A DNA stretch of 35,428 bases from positions 1 through 35,428 of the forward strand of contig VGFL01000017.1 in the NCBI GenBank assembly GCA_016868915.1. The letters run 5' to 3'. Positions 24,533 through 31,086 of this stretch are shown in pieces; within the stretch, counting starts at the first letter, position 1, and each line of letters opens with the position of its first letter. A model generated the notes under the pieces. It was not told the origin of the DNA. It saw only the letters and a list, made by a program, of their open reading frames with translations, and did no database searches. Source of the stretch: Bacteroidota bacterium. Its GTDB lineage: Bacteria > Bacteroidota > Bacteroidia > Flavobacteriales_D > Crocinitomicaceae. The translations under genes were made by a program, and so were the position numbers.

Positions 24533-24844
24533 ATGAAAACACACTTTATTGAAAATATCGAATTTAATAGCCTTGACAACGATATTCGTGTTCAATGCTT
24601 GGTTGAAGATGGAAATTTTTCGCACCAAAGTACAATAATCCTCGCATCACGATGGATAAACAAATTATTAATGTATATTCAAAAATTAAATCCTGAGGAG
24701 CAAATTGACGAAAAAATTGAGCGAATATTTTTCCCGAATGGAACAATTTTGTACAAACTAAATACGCTGAGATTTGTAAAAAATCAAATAGCTTGGGAGG
24801 AATTTTTAGGCGAAGATGTTGAACTCAAAAAAATTCGGGCTTAA
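24533..24844 (+). CDS. Small protein of unknown function
   Basis: A 103-aa protein starting at ATG 24533; an in-frame upstream TTG (24476) would add 19 non-protein-like residues. It looks soluble, alpha/beta and acidic in its second half: [51 protein letters not shown] do not recognise a family and see no signal peptide or metal motif. Its TAA stop shares bases with the infB stop (4-nt tail-to-tail overlap in TTAA). An AATATTTG (24508-24515) might serve as a -7 box. Intact frame and residue composition suggest a real gene. Confidence 0.6.
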
Positions 24845-27486
24845 AGTTTACGTGCCACTTCCACTTCTTCAAATGCTTCAATTACGTCACCGATATTGAT
24901 ATCGTTAAACTTTTCAATATTCAAACCACATTCGTAATTATTTTTTACTTCTTTAACATCGTCTTTAAATCTCTTTAATGATCCTAAAATTCCGGTATGA
25001 ACTACAATTCCATCTCGGATAATTCGGATTTTCGATGTTCTTTTGATAATTCCATCAATCACAAAGCAGCCTGCAATTGTGCCGACTTTAGTAATATTGA
25101 ATGTTTCGCGTATTTCTGCCGTCCCCAAAATTTTCTCCTCAATATCGGGGGATAGCATTCCTTCCATGGCTGATTTAATTTCTTCAATCGCCTTGTAAAT
25201 TATAGAATACAATCGTATATCAATTTGTTCATTTTCGGCAAGCTTACGCGCAGTTACAGTGGGTCTAACTTGGAATCCCAGAATGATTGCATCCGATGCT
25301 GAAGCCAAATTTACATCTGCTTCTGATATTGCTCCCACACCTTTGTGAATAATTTTAACTTGAATTTCCTCCGTTGATAATTTGAGTAAGGCATCTGATA
25401 AGGCCTCTATTGAACCATCAACATCTCCTTTTACGATAATATTTAATTCTTTGAAATCTCCAATAGCTAATCGTCGACCAATTTCATCAAGTGTAATGTG
25501 CTTGGTAGTTCTGAGACCTTGCTCTCGATATAATTGTTCTCTTTTTGTAGCGATATTCCGCGCTTCCTTTTCATCATCGAGAATGTTAAACTTATCGCCT
25601 GCACTTGGCGCTCCGCTAATACCAAGGATTGAAACGGGTTGTGATGGACCAGCTTCTTTAACAACTCTTCCATGTTCGTCATGCATGGCTCTTACCTTTC
25701 CATAATATCGTCCCACCAGAATAACATCACCAACTCGCATCGTTCCGGCCTCAACTAATAAATTTGTAACATAACCTTTCCCTTTATCAAGAGAAGACTC
25801 TATTACAGTTCCTACTGCATTTTTATCTGGATTTGCCTTCAGGTCAAGAATTTCTGCTTCAAGCAATACTTTATCAAGCAGAGCATCTATATTCAAGTTT
25901 TGTTTCGCTGAAATTTCTTGTACTTGGTATTTTCCACCCCAATCTTCGACTAAAATATTCATTCCTGAAAGTTGCTCACGAATTTTATCCGAATTGGCAC
26001 CTGGTTTATCGATTTTGTTAATGGCAAAAACCATCGGTACTCCGGCAGCCTGAGCATGAGAGATGGCCTCTTTTGTCTGAGGCATCACATCGTCATCAGC
26101 TGCGACAATGATAATTGCAACATCAGTAACTTGAGCTCCGCGGGCACGCATCGCTGTAAAAGCCTCGTGACCTGGTGTATCTAAAAATGTCATTTTACGA
26201 CCATCTTTCAAGGTAACAGAATATGCACCAATATGTTGTGTTATTCCTCCGGCCTCTCCTTCAGATACATTGGCATTACGTATTTTATCCAATAATGATG
26301 TTTTACCATGATCAACGTGCCCCATCACAGTGATAATTGGTGGACGAGAAAGAAGTTCATCTTCCGTATCTTCTTGAACAGTAATGGCCTCGGAAATTTC
26401 TGCGCTCACGAACTGTGTTTCGAATCCAAACTCATCTGCAATTATTTGAATGGTCTCAGCATCGATTCGTTGGTTAATGGAAGCAAAAATACCGAGTGAC
26501 ATACATGCAGAAATAACTTGTGTAGATTGAATATTCATCATAGATGCCAATTCTGACACTGTCACAAATTCGGTTAATTTTAAAATCTTTTCCTCAAGTT
26601 CAGCTTGTTCTAATTCTTCCTGGCGGCGCTGAGAAACAATTTCACGCTTCGCCCGTCTATTTTTTGATGCTTTTGATTTACCTCCTTGATTGGATAATCG
26701 AGCTAAAGTCTCTTTAATTTCTTTTTGAATATCAACCTCTCTTATTTCTTGCTTTTCAACTTTTTCTTTATTGGAATCTTTGCTGTACGTGCTCGATCGA
26801 GAATCAACGGAACCAGAATTTTCAACTTTTTTAATTCTTTTTCTTTTTTTCCGCTGATCTTCCACTGAATTTGCAGGGGTTGAAGGCTTCGGTTTTTCTA
26901 TTGGCAAATCAATTTTTCCAAGTACAGTTGGTCCAGACAAAACTTTCCGCTCAATGCGAATGGTTTCGATATTCTCTCGATTTTCGGTTGAATCAGATTC
27001 TTTATTTTTATCCTCAGTCGGTGTATCGTGGATCTCATCAGCATCAATTCTGGGTGCCTCATCACTTTCGACTTTTGGTTCTACTTTATGACCAGCAGAC
27101 TTCAAATCAATATTTCCAACAATATTTACTTTTGATTTCGGAGCAGGTGAGAAGGGTTCTAAAACGGAACGCTTTATCTCATCCAAGTTGATGGGCGTAT
27201 CCTCTTCATCATCCGCCTCTTCTTGATAATTAACCTCATCTCGAGTTACCTTCACAATTACAGTGTCTTTAGTTTCTCTTGCTTCAATCACATTTTTTGA
27301 CTGCTCATTTGATTCTACGTCCGAACCAAATTCTGCACGCAAAAGCAAAATTTGAGACTCTTCCAATTTAGTATTTGGATTGGAATCTATTTTTATCCCC
27401 TTAGACTCGAGAAATTCGACAAGCGTTGAAACCCCAATATTGAGTTCACTTGCCGCTTTTCCTAAACGAATTGGTTTTCCAGCCAT
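24841..27486 (-). CDS. infB: Translation initiation factor IF-2
   Basis: An 881-aa GTPase that brings initiator tRNA to the 30S subunit. Domains: an N-terminal IF2_N-type helical module ([20 protein letters not shown]), a long charged variable region to about residue 290, and a second IF2_N module ([18 protein letters not shown]). The G domain follows, with G1 [13 protein letters not shown] (about 387), G2 [11 protein letters not shown]3 DTPGHEAF and G4 NKID. After it come domains II-IV, ending in the C2 beta-barrel ([22 protein letters not shown]). Size is usual for Bacteroidetes IF-2. It is last in rimP-nusA-infB, an order conserved in most bacteria. Confidence 0.96.
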
Positions 27487-27534: not shown

Positions 27535-28770
27535 TTATTCAAATTCTGCCATTAAAATTCGAAGCACCTCTTCAACGGTTTCATATTCTAAATCAGTTCG
27601 TTGTACCAAATCATCAATACCAATTTCAATTACTGCTTTGGCTGTATCACAGCCGATTGCTTTTAATTCGTCTAATATCCAACCATCAATTTCATCTGCA
27701 AATTCTTCCAAATCAACATCCTCAATGTCAACTTCACCATCCCGATAAACATCGAGTTCATATCCGCTCAATCTACCGGCTAATTTAATATTATTTCCCC
27801 CTTTTCCAATAGCTAAAGACACCTGGTCTGGCTTTAAAAAGATTTTTGCACGTTTATCACTTTCATTTAATTCAATGGATGTAATTTTTGCCGGTGATAA
27901 AGCTCTTTGGATAAGTAATTGAGCGTTTGAAGTATAGTTGATGACGTCAATATTTTCATTTTTCAGCTCTCTAACTATTCCATGAATTCTAGAACCCTTC
28001 ATTCCGACACATGCTCCAACAGGATCAACACGATCATCGTAGGATTCAACAGCAACTTTTGCCCTTTCGCCAGGCTCGCGCACAATACGCTTAATTGTTA
28101 TTAAGCCATCAAAAACCTCCGGGACTTCTAATTCAAACAATCTTTCTAAAAATTCAGGCGCTGTTCTTGACAAGATAATAACAGGTGTTGAATTACGCAT
28201 ATCAACTTTCGAAACGACCGACCGAACGCTCTCTCCTTTTTTGAAATAATCTGAAGGAATCTGTTCAGATTTTGGTAGAATTAATTCGTTCCCTTCATCA
28301 TCTACCACCAAAATTTCTTTTTTCCATACCTGATAAACTTCCCCGGTTATTATTTCACCAACTCTTTCTTTATATGCTTTATATAGGCTATCTTTCTCCA
28401 ACTCCATAATTCGGGAAATTAAGTTTTGTCGTAAAGAAAGAATATTTCGTCTGCCAAAATCGGCAAACTTGAACTCCTCCGTTACTTCCTCCCCAATTTC
28501 GAAATCAGGTTCAATTTTTACAGCATCTGAATAAGCTATCTCAATATTTGGATCCTCAACTTCCCCGTCATCAACAATTTCTTTGTTCAAAAAGATTTGT
28601 ACATCACCTTTATCAATATTAACGATGATGTCAATATGCTTATCTGTATTAAATTTCTTTTTAAACATGGAACGAAAAACATCTTCTAAGACATGTTGCA
28701 TTGTCTGTTTGTCAATATTTTTTAATTCTTTAAACTCTAAAAACGAGTCGGTTAATTCTACATTATTCAT
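27535..28770 (-). CDS. nusA: Transcription termination/antitermination factor NusA
   Basis: A 411-aa RNA polymerase-binding factor. N-terminal domain (about 1-130), S1 domain (about 133-200, GEIITGEVYQVWKKEILVVD), KH1 (about 230-295, VGACVGMKGSRIHGIVREL) and KH2 (about 300-345, VSLAIGKGGNNIKLAGRLSG) are visible. They are followed by an acidic tail with one helix-hairpin-helix-like segment (LKAIGCDTAKAVIEIGIDDL). It lacks the two acidic repeats of the E. coli protein, as expected outside Gammaproteobacteria. NusA promotes pausing and intrinsic termination, which matters here because its own operon leader carries a terminator-like hairpin. Confidence 0.95.
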   Translation of the reverse strand: MNNVELTDSFLEFKELKNIDKQTMQHVLEDVFRSMFKKKFNTDKHIDIIVNIDKGDVQIFLNKEIVDDGEVEDPNIEIAYSDAVKIEPDFEIGEEVTEEFKFADFGRRNILSLRQNLISRIMELEKDSLYKAYKERVGEIITGEVYQVWKKEILVVDDEGNELILPKSEQIPSDYFKKGESVRSVVSKVDMRNSTPVIILSRTAPEFLERLFELEVPEVFDGLITIKRIVREPGERAKVAVESYDDRVDPVGACVGMKGSRIHGIVRELKNENIDVINYTSNAQLLIQRALSPAKITSIELNESDKRAKIFLKPDQVSLAIGKGGNNIKLAGRLSGYELDVYRDGEVDIEDVDLEEFADEIDGWILDELKAIGCDTAKAVIEIGIDDLVQRTDLEYETVEEVLRILMAEFE

Positions 28771-28779
28771 AGTTTGAAT

Positions 28780-29256
28780 TTAATTAAATGAAATCACAAT
28801 TTTTGTTTCTTTTATTTGTTTAAAGGGAAGAATTACTTCTTCGACTATTTTCTGTTTTTTCTTAGTGCCTTGAATTTTTTCTACTCTTTCATTTTGTAGT
28901 TTAATATAATCACCCTCTACTTCGACCAATTGACCTTCAACTTTTTTGCCTTCAATGGTAATTACTTTTACGCGTTTTCCTCTGTGCTTTCTGTACTGAT
29001 TCCAATGAATTAAAGGCCGGTCAAGACCTGCAGAGGAAACATTTAATTCAAAATCTTCTCTTTCGCGATCTAAATTTTTCTCAATATTTCTCGAAACTGC
29101 AATACATTCCTCGATAGAAACCCTTCCTTCTGTTTTATCAATCGCCACATGAATTACATTGGATGAACTAATTGATAGGTCCACCAAATAGATTTTCTCA
29201 TCCAACTCTTGCGTTCGCTCCTCAATCAATTTTATGACTTTTTTCTTATCGATCAT
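28780..29256 (-). CDS. rimP: Ribosome maturation factor RimP
   Basis: A 158-aa protein needed for 30S subunit maturation. N-terminal alpha/beta domain (VDLSISSSNVIHVAIDK, SIEECIAVSRNIEKNLD), the conserved FELNVSSAGLDRPL near residues 82-95, and a C-terminal SH3-like barrel (HRGKRVKVITIEGKKVEGQLVEV) match RimP. First gene of rimP-nusA-infB. Its ATG lies 12 nt after a terminator-like hairpin in the leader, so transcripts must read through that structure to express the operon. Confidence 0.93.
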   Translation of the reverse strand: MIDKKKVIKLIEERTQELDEKIYLVDLSISSSNVIHVAIDKTEGRVSIEECIAVSRNIEKNLDREREDFELNVSSAGLDRPLIHWNQYRKHRGKRVKVITIEGKKVEGQLVEVEGDYIKLQNERVEKIQGTKKKQKIVEEVILPFKQIKETKIVISFN

Positions 29257-29288
29257 ATGGTAATAAAAGAGGGGACTTTCGTCCCCTC
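29257..29288 (-). terminator. Terminator-like hairpin in the rimP-nusA-infB leader (possible attenuator)
   Basis: On the minus strand GAGGGGAC (29288-29281), loop GAAA (29280-29277) and GTCCCCTC (29276-29269) form a perfect 8-bp stem closed by a GNRA tetraloop. It is followed at once by TTTTATTACCAT and the rimP ATG. Predicted transcription starts about 20 nt before the stem. No gene on either strand ends here, so it is not an ordinary 3' terminator; it looks like an attenuator or leader structure. Confidence 0.6.
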
Positions 29289-29313
29289 ATTCTTAATTTC
29301 TATAAAAGTGACA

Positions 29314-29344
29314 CAAAGATAAGGCAATCTTATTGATTTTCCAA
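29314..29344 (-). promoter_or_regulatory. Promoter for rimP-nusA-infB
   Basis: On the minus strand TTG (29344-29342), 20-bp spacer, then TATCTTTG (29321 to 29314), an exact TAnnTTTG. Predicted leader is about 50 nt. Its -33 element lies inside the spacer of the opposite-facing promoter for the DUF3109 gene. Confidence 0.65.
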
Positions 29345-29381: not shown

Positions 29382-29945
29382 GTGCTAATTGAACTTGATA
29401 ACAAAATCATATCGACTCAAATCTTTGAAAAGAAATTTGTTTGTGACTTGAATCAATGCAAAGGCAATTGTTGTGTGGAAGGAGATGCCGGAGCTCCTCT
29501 CCGGTGGGATGAAGTTAATCAAATAGAAAAAGACATCGAATATATAAAACCTTTTATGAAAAAGGAAGGAATTGAAAAAGTTGAGGAAACAGATTTTTTT
29601 TATTTAGATCCTGAAAATGAACCGGTTTCGTCACTTGTAAACAACAAGGAATGTGTTTTTGTAGTTTTTGAAAACGGGATAGCTAAATGTTCTATAGAAA
29701 AAGCTTACAACCAGGGAGCGACAAAATTAAAAAAACCTCTTTCCTGCCACCTCTACCCCATTCGATTAAAAAAATTCAATGAATCAATAGCGATTAATTT
29801 TGAGGAATGGGGAATTTGTGCGCCTGCTTGCAGTTGTGGGGAGAAATTAAATGTCCCAGTATTTAAATTTCTCAAAGAACCTCTTATTCGTGCTTTTGGA
29901 GAGGATTTTTATAACGAATTGGAAATAATTAGTAAAGAAATTTAG
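29382..29945 (+). CDS. DUF3109 cysteine-rich protein (YkgJ-like)
   Basis: A 187-aa cytoplasmic protein with a GTG start; no other start lies between the promoter and this codon. The N-terminal motif FVCDLNQCKGNCCVEGDAGAPL (Cys21, Cys26, Cys30, Cys31) is what I know as DUF3109. Further cysteines occur in NKECVF, AKCSIEKAY, LSCHLYPIR and GICAPACSC, making about ten in total. The motif resembles Cys-rich Zn- or FeS-binding families such as YkgJ. Function unknown; a metal or cluster site is a reasonable inference. It ends 1 nt before the convergent metB-like gene. Confidence 0.82.
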   Translation: MLIELDNKIISTQIFEKKFVCDLNQCKGNCCVEGDAGAPLRWDEVNQIEKDIEYIKPFMKKEGIEKVEETDFFYLDPENEPVSSLVNNKECVFVVFENGIAKCSIEKAYNQGATKLKKPLSCHLYPIRLKKFNESIAINFEEWGICAPACSCGEKLNVPVFKFLKEPLIRAFGEDFYNELEIISKEI

Positions 29946-29946
29946 T

Positions 29947-31086
29947 CTACGCAAGAGCCTTTTCCAAATCACTAATTAAATCCTCTGAATCTTCAATTCC
30001 AACGCTCAAACGAATTAAAGAATCAACTACCCCACTTTGTTCTCTTATTTCTTTTGGAATAGATGCGTGAGTCATTGTTGCGGGATGCCCAATTAGAGAC
30101 TCAACACCACCCAACGATTCGGCGAGAGAAAATAGATGAACCTTTTTAACGACTTCAAGGGCATCTTCTAATTTATTTCCTTTTAAAGTGAATGAAATCA
30201 TACCACCAAAACCACGCATTTGCTTTTTAGCAATGGTATGATTGGGATGAGATTCAAATCCGGGCCAGTATACCTTTTCAATTTTTGAATGTTGGTTGAG
30301 ATAATTTGCAATTTTTTCCCCATTTTCGCAATGACGTTGAATTCTCAAGTGCAAGGTTTTTATCCCACGTAAAACGAGAAAAGAATCCATTGGTCCAGTT
30401 ACAGCACCTGAGGAATTTTGAATTCGGTACATTTCTTTCGCAATTTCATCATTTGAAGTAACCAACGCTCCCATTATTACATCTGAGTGCCCACCTAAAT
30501 ACTTAGTTACTGAATGCATTACTATATCAGCCCCTAAATCAAGAGGTGTTTGTAAATAAGGAGTAGCAAATGTGTTATCAACACAAACCCATGCACCACA
30601 ACTCTTAGCTATTTTGGACATTGCTTCAATATCTACAATATTCATCATGGGATTTGTTGGAGTTTCTACCCAAATCATTCTCGTTTTGCTATTCACGAGA
30701 TTCCGAACTTCCTCAGGATTTTGCATATTTACGAAGTGGAATTTAATTCCATACTTTTGAAATATCGTTGTAAAAATTCGATATGAGCCCCCATATAAAT
30801 CGTTGGTAGAAATGACCTCATCGCCAGGATTCAGCATTTTTATTACACAATCAATGGCAGCTAATCCTGAACCAAAACAAGCTCCATATTTTCCATTTTC
30901 AATGGCTGCGATATTTTGTTCCAAAGCATGTCTAGTAGGATTTAAAGTTCGTGAATATTCGTACCCCTTATGATTCCCTACTCCCTCTTGGACATAGGTT
31001 GAAGTTTGATAAATAGGTGTCATAATTGCTCCAGTTGCTGGATCTGGCTCAACACCTGCATGAATGGCTTTGGTTGCAAATTTCAT
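29947..31086 (-). CDS. PLP-dependent trans-sulfuration enzyme, cystathionine gamma-synthase/lyase type
   Basis: A 379-aa Cys/Met metabolism PLP enzyme. Seen: TPIYQTSTYV, the phosphate-binding YEYSRTLNPTR (Tyr44, Arg46), CFGSGLAAIDCVI, VETPTNPMMNI, the PLP aspartate in CVDNTFATPYLQ and the Schiff-base lysine Lys195 in HSVTKYLGGHSDV. The C-terminal substrate segment is SLGGVESLIGHPATMTHA, followed by RLSVGIED. This family includes cystathionine gamma-synthase (MetB), gamma-lyase and beta-lyase, which cannot be separated confidently by eye. The general pattern fits the gamma-synthase/gamma-lyase branch. Methionine-related like mtnA, but not in an operon with it. Confidence 0.88.
   Translation of the reverse strand: MKFATKAIHAGVEPDPATGAIMTPIYQTSTYVQEGVGNHKGYEYSRTLNPTRHALEQNIAAIENGKYGACFGSGLAAIDCVIKMLNPGDEVISTNDLYGGSYRIFTTIFQKYGIKFHFVNMQNPEEVRNLVNSKTRMIWVETPTNPMMNIVDIEAMSKIAKSCGAWVCVDNTFATPYLQTPLDLGADIVMHSVTKYLGGHSDVIMGALVTSNDEIAKEMYRIQNSSGAVTGPMDSFLVLRGIKTLHLRIQRHCENGEKIANYLNQHSKIEKVYWPGFESHPNHTIAKKQMRGFGGMISFTLKGNKLEDALEVVKKVHLFSLAESLGGVESLIGHPATMTHASIPKEIREQSGVVDSLIRLSVGIEDSEDLISDLEKALA

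Follow-up and report, generated by a model that had tools for sequence, protein, structure and literature searches.

The question raised by this locus is whether a hairpin lying between a promoter and the first gene of the rimP-nusA-infB operon restrains transcription of that operon and, if so, which factor sets the restraint. The window, that is, the whole stretch of 35,428 nt that was analysed, carries on its minus strand rimP (28780-29256), which is the first operon gene, nusA (27535-28770), whose product is the proposed feedback factor, and infB (24841-27486). The earlier note had named these genes, and the naming was borne out by Pfam, which returned RimP_N (4.3e-11) for rimP, NusA_N and KH_5 for nusA, and IF-2 and GTP_EFTU for infB.

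The hairpin occupies 29288-29269 of the minus strand and reads GAGGGGAC-GAAA-GTCCCCTC. The 5' arm GAGGGGAC (29281-29288) and the 3' arm GTCCCCTC (29269-29276) form a perfect 8-bp stem, six of its pairs being G-C, around the GAAA loop (29277-29280). Directly behind the stem comes the tail TTTTATT (29262-29268), where the transcript is presumably released; from the stem end to the rimP ATG at 29256 there are 12 nt. The sequence thus has the make-up of an intrinsic terminator, a GC-rich hairpin with a U-rich tract at once behind it. Reading, folding and shuffles agreed with the structure and the 12-nt spacing described in the earlier note; the hairpin alone folded with -16.9 kcal/mol (z -4.9), and equal stability was reached in 0 of 200 shuffles. 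When up to two mismatches were allowed, the stem pattern matched once in the window and in none of 100 shuffles. In the organism's own genome, a 2.2-Mb assembly of 128 contigs, AGGGGA-N6-TCCCCT with one mismatch matched at the rimP leader only. One fixed rule was then applied to 34 window genes, hand-picked out of 49 listed ORFs. A terminator-like hairpin within 70 nt before the start was found for rimP alone, and the rimP stem therefore stands out among the genes examined. By the same rule, none of the 34 genes had a terminator-like hairpin within 90 nt past its stop codon, and convergent pairs in this set that abut, overlap or lie less than 20 nt apart were likewise without one.

A promoter ahead of the hairpin had been claimed before, and the claim was supported by the related loci. 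The -7 box TATCTTTG (29314-29321, minus strand) was read as a match to the Bacteroidota consensus TAnnTTTG, as the consensus is given in PMC9723704. The stem starts 25 nt 3' of this box. Among the 30 genus loci, window counted, a TAnnTTTG box was present 20-28 nt upstream of the stem in every case; by chance, the motif occurred in 426 of 6000 mononucleotide-shuffled 60-mers. A possible -33 element, TTG (29342-29344, minus strand), lies 20 nt upstream of the -7 box, the reference for this distance being the customary -33 to -7 consensus spacing. Transcription is predicted to start a few nt downstream of the -7 box, near 29305-29311. For context, a divergent DUF3109 gene (29382-29945, plus strand; Pfam DUF3109) lies on the other side of the promoter and is divergent in 30/30 genus loci. 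No ATG in frame was seen close to where this gene should begin; its first listed start codon is the GTG at 29382.

The stem proved to be nearly frozen within the genus. A RimP search gave a match in 78 of 86 genus genomes, own genome included, and the best 30 loci by RimP, window included, were taken as the genus set (RimP identity 48-100%; a few mutually close). All 16 stem bases were identical in 30/30 of these loci, and the loop was GAAA in 29 and GCAA in one. The 40 nt upstream of the stem showed 38% identity against 32% after shuffling and were thus near-random. Of 249 genomes of the order, 96 carried GRGGGGAC-N4-GTCCCCYC, among them 30 of the 32 genus genomes in that sample; the other two genus genomes carry a G-U variant (L091, L092). 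Each genome had one copy except G018, which had two. The second copy (L332:660-679) lies, by reading, between T9SS-like and response-regulator genes and is apparently an ordinary terminator. Mimicry of rRNA by the whole hairpin was considered and is unlikely in view of this near-universal single copy, with the qualification that some assemblies may lack rRNA.

Beyond the order, the exact stem is confined to part of the phylum, since a search of 296 genomes sampled from the phylum for GAGGGGAC-N4-GTCCCCTC-TTTT gave only three positives, among them the window's own genome and a genome of the same genus. When about 85,000 genomes were scanned for the stem with TTTT, at least 118 stretches matched, and 116 of the 118 listed were rimP leaders. 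For 111 of these, tblastn placed rimP or nusA behind the stretch in the same orientation; four (L175, L180, L183 and L195) were assigned by RimP profile, and one at a contig end (L225) by reading. L180 has the exact TTTT on the opposite strand and TTTC on the rimP side. The two stretches that were not rimP leaders belonged to Phascolarctobacterium (L168:2382-2401, which by reading precedes an sfsA-like gene) and Paenibacillus (L177:2449-2468), and both are probably chance matches. Among the listed matches, 78 of 80 record titles bear names that we take to be those of Bacteroidota.

Since these scans rely on the motif itself, we also surveyed leaders chosen independently of it, through RimP or NusA homology. 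Overall, 130 of 139 leaders had a terminator-like hairpin no more than 70 nt from rimP. By set, the counts were 30/30 in the genus, 19/20 in genus and family genomes picked among those negative for the exact pattern, 29/30 in the order (30 of 34 searched), and 52/59 in the class and phylum. The last set comprised 60 leaders hand-picked out of 138, from which L291 was dropped because its RimP was not recognised. The controls gave 0.2-2.6% for dinucleotide shuffles and 0/139 for pieces of rimP coding sequence. Among the misses, the hairpin was further away in L255, L272 and L328, the T-run was shorter in L106, and in L275 and L279 the only hairpin lay far upstream of rimP. The leaders of families f16, f31, f34, f36 and f40 were scored as hairpin-less under the uninterrupted-stem rule; on reading, most of those printed had interrupted or larger-loop hairpins with T-runs, and a rule permitting one mismatch raised the hairpin count. 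Rows L031, L032 and L112 were left out as duplicates, L047 because its contig ends ahead of the leader, and L042 from the T/A count owing to a contig edge.

The specificity for rimP was further examined in the 894 kb around the listed stretches (at least 118). This sequence held 116 other terminator-like hairpins, 93 without repeats, and the GGGGA/TCCCC core occurred in 2 of the 116. A looser covariance model made from the hairpin (R1) scored the rimP leader at 46.3 bits in the own genome, with the next site at 29.5 bits. This model is too general to prove uniqueness, as seen in genome G035, where two other sites, G035:C51:5288-5319 (40.8 bits) and G035:C3:77740-77772 (37.8 bits), outscored the rimP leader (37.4 bits). 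R1 did not find the E. coli leader.

A nearly invariant palindrome could in principle act as RNA or as DNA, and the changes among relatives bear on this choice. Stems differ by clade, namely GAGGGGC or GAGGGGT, GAGGCACGC in two Flavobacterium-like genomes, GAAGGGAACG, ATGGGCT, and TCGCCCC. Across the order, 7 of 8 pairs were altered on both sides, with 0/500 shuffles as high and slid controls reaching at most 4, a count raised in part by 7-bp stems that sit one column out of register. Within the family, 2 of 8 pairs (4 cells) were changed on both sides, with 5/500 and 0/500 shuffles as high, but one of the two pairs came from the out-of-register row L093, and a control slid by -3 columns gave the same 2 pairs and 4 cells. 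The covariation suggested as a check was thus clear across the order and weak within the family. By reading, A-U had become G-U in L043, L091 and L092, C-G had become U-G in L094 and L099, and C-G had become U-A in L096, L098 and L103. Loops measured 3 to 5 nt between full arms, and up to 7 nt when the inner pair was lost. The GNRA loop emphasised earlier is present in the window as GAAA, but it is not essential, since non-GNRA loops occur in other family members and in other orders. Of the 76 genus and family loci, 75 had at least four T, and 52 had five, in the 5 nt 3' of the stem (three genomes counted twice). For the order set, the search rule itself asked for a T-run, which is therefore no evidence there. 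The 5 nt upstream of the stem were A-rich in the genus and family loci (mean 2.7 A of 5; five of five in one), so the T/A polarity is strong and not absolute, and the two sides differ in degree.

These data disfavour a palindromic DNA operator for a dimeric repressor, which we regard as highly improbable. Both arms are indeed nearly invariant, as an operator would have them, and in some genomes with AATT loops the full 20 bp are palindromic, but the arm-to-arm gap varies among relatives, G-U pairs and C-G to U-A swaps occur as listed above, other clades pair with different sequences, and the T-run lies on the rimP side. A role in translation was also considered, in which the hairpin would hide or shape the rimP start or protect the 5' end of the mRNA, termination being incidental. 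Occlusion of the start had been raised as the alternative reading in the earlier note, and it fits the 12 nt between stem and ATG in the window and the family median of 12 nt. The distance to the assigned start nevertheless ranged from 10 to 55 nt over 107 genus, family and order hairpins (three genomes counted twice) and from 7 to 123 nt in 45 class and phylum hairpins. The T-run past the stem is needed neither for occlusion nor for 5' protection, and this role appears unlikely.

The hairpin might instead be an ordinary terminator serving a neighbour, by stopping read-through or antisense transcription. It had been stated that the hairpin cannot terminate any other gene. Strictly, this does not hold, as a Cys/Met PLP-enzyme gene (29947-31086, minus strand) faces the hairpin from about 660 nt across the DUF3109 gene, and no terminator-like hairpin lies between. 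The nearest upstream ORF of at least 90 aa is nevertheless divergent in 30/30 genus loci. In nine loci picked by eye (L114, L123, L127, L133, L141, L154, L156, L160 and L179), the rimP leader is closely preceded by a tRNA-Gln (UUG) gene of the same strand. The arrangement recalls metY-rimP of E. coli, and the hairpin could end the tRNA transcript there too. DUF3109 was not found near rimP in 90 of 107 other loci (some sequences being short); the neighbourhood thus changes and the hairpin stays with rimP. Together with the promoter box ahead of the stem throughout the genus set, this makes service to a neighbour the least probable of the readings considered.

An attenuator of this operon is already known, and the hairpin was compared with it. 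The rimP-leader of Naville and Gautheret (2010; PMC2965389) is a terminator hairpin with a U-stretch in the 5' UTR of rimP-nusA-infB, which the main text of that paper calls the most ubiquitous attenuator, found in a majority of the species it covers, including Firmicutes and Gammaproteobacteria, and for which its authors favour NusA. The window has such a hairpin and U-stretch in the rimP 5' UTR, and its 12 nt from stem end to gene fall within the 4-130 nt given for the rimP-leader. The likeness extends to the G-rich 5' arm, the C-rich 3' arm, the unusually conserved stem, and the absence of an antiterminator in the general form, as reflected here by the stem shared in 30/30 genus loci behind near-random upstream sequence. 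In contrast, the rimP-leader core GGGc(...)gCCC is not seen in the window, where GAGGGGAC(...)GTCCCCTC has GGGGAC/GTCCCC; it does fit the GAGGGGC/GCCCCTC stems of four same-order relatives (L307, L312, L314 and L315). The window stem departs from the core and some relatives in the order conform to it, and the hairpin is therefore filed as a variant. The word 'Bacteroidetes' is absent from the main text of PMC2965389, and Bacteroidota may still figure in its supplementary species lists.

Rfam holds a leader element of the same operon, RF01770 'rimP', as a 102-position model. A search of the own genome with RF01770 gave 16 matches up to E 10, none of them at this locus, and no Rfam family exceeded its cut-off in the window; such matches as appeared were weak and at chance level. 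In Flavobacterium psychrophilum, PMC9723704 describes a transcribed, structured and unexplained rimP 5' element, also present in other Flavobacteriaceae genera and without an Rfam hit; it is probably the same hairpin. No description of this stem appeared in the main-text literature examined. The hairpin is a well-supported form, missing from Rfam, of a known attenuator and not a new kind.

Precedents for its control come from two model organisms. In B. subtilis, as summarised in the review PMC12288461, NusA was shown by experiment to stimulate intrinsic termination in its own leader. The window resembles this leader, as it is described there, in having an intrinsic terminator in the 5' leader and, as proposed here, NusA feedback. 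For E. coli, PMC6511841 reports two terminators upstream of rimP and a rise in operon transcripts when NusA-dependent termination falls. The E. coli metY-rimP leader (NC_000913) contains a short GGGCT[tta]GGCCC hairpin with T7, located 24 nt upstream of rimP. Unlike the window, which has one hairpin and no tRNA, E. coli has 206 nt between tRNA and rimP and a second terminator-like hairpin.

Taken on the sequence, the hairpin is very probably a real brake on rimP-nusA-infB. The earlier reading as a leader attenuator is well supported by the conservation, the clade-specific stems that still pair, the T-run, and the specificity for rimP. We therefore favour, with a probability of roughly 60%, a minimal intrinsic-terminator attenuator in a leader of about 50 nt, most likely set by NusA. 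Polymerase would start near 29308 and transcribe the hairpin and the U-tract; a fraction of transcripts would stop ahead of the rimP start codon, and the remainder would read through. Partial termination of this kind in vivo is to be expected with considerable confidence. Because the stop site precedes the start codon, a ribosome on rimP would have no influence on the decision. No antiterminator, aptamer or conserved leader peptide was seen in the short leader. A leader peptide was considered because an upstream ATG overlaps the window stem, yet relatives differ in the base that precedes the stem. With no conserved antiterminator partner and neither aptamer nor leader peptide seen, a trans factor that acts on the hairpin or the polymerase and sets the termination level is the simplest remaining control.

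In view of the precedents in B. subtilis and E. coli, NusA is the best candidate for this factor. A rise in NusA would raise termination and thereby lower rimP-nusA-infB expression. By analogy with these organisms, and with no other sensing element seen, we lean slightly towards NusA as the controlling factor. What can be read from the sequence is the hairpin, the promoter arrangement, the conservation, the rimP specificity and the pairing across clades, and none of these points to NusA over another factor. The hairpin is strong, with an uninterrupted T7 in many relatives, and could terminate without NusA. An attenuator set by something else, such as hairpin-melting cold-shock proteins, NusG/Rho, RimP, or elongation rate and nucleotide levels at the early U-tract, is accordingly a minority reading that we take seriously: the leader showed no dedicated sensor, which leaves room for any general factor, and the CspA family has been put forward as acting by antitermination on the E. 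coli operon (a proposal cited in PMC6511841). The E. coli northern patterns reported in the same paper do not fit Csp antitermination, however, and the direct B. subtilis precedent belongs to NusA (PMC12288461).

More tentatively, the nearly frozen stem of the favoured attenuator may also be a specific RNA ligand whose bases are read by an operon product (NusA, RimP or IF2). If so, sensor and terminator of an attenuator of about 50 nt would be the same 20 nt, which would account for a fixed stem among the otherwise diverse terminator-like hairpins of these genomes. The rimP-leader attenuator gains a well-defined Bacteroidota form, whose nearly invariant stem escapes the Rfam model. The clade-specific stems reveal what in a terminator is free to drift and what is not, and NusA feedback in Bacteroidota becomes a simple test on a 50-nt leader.
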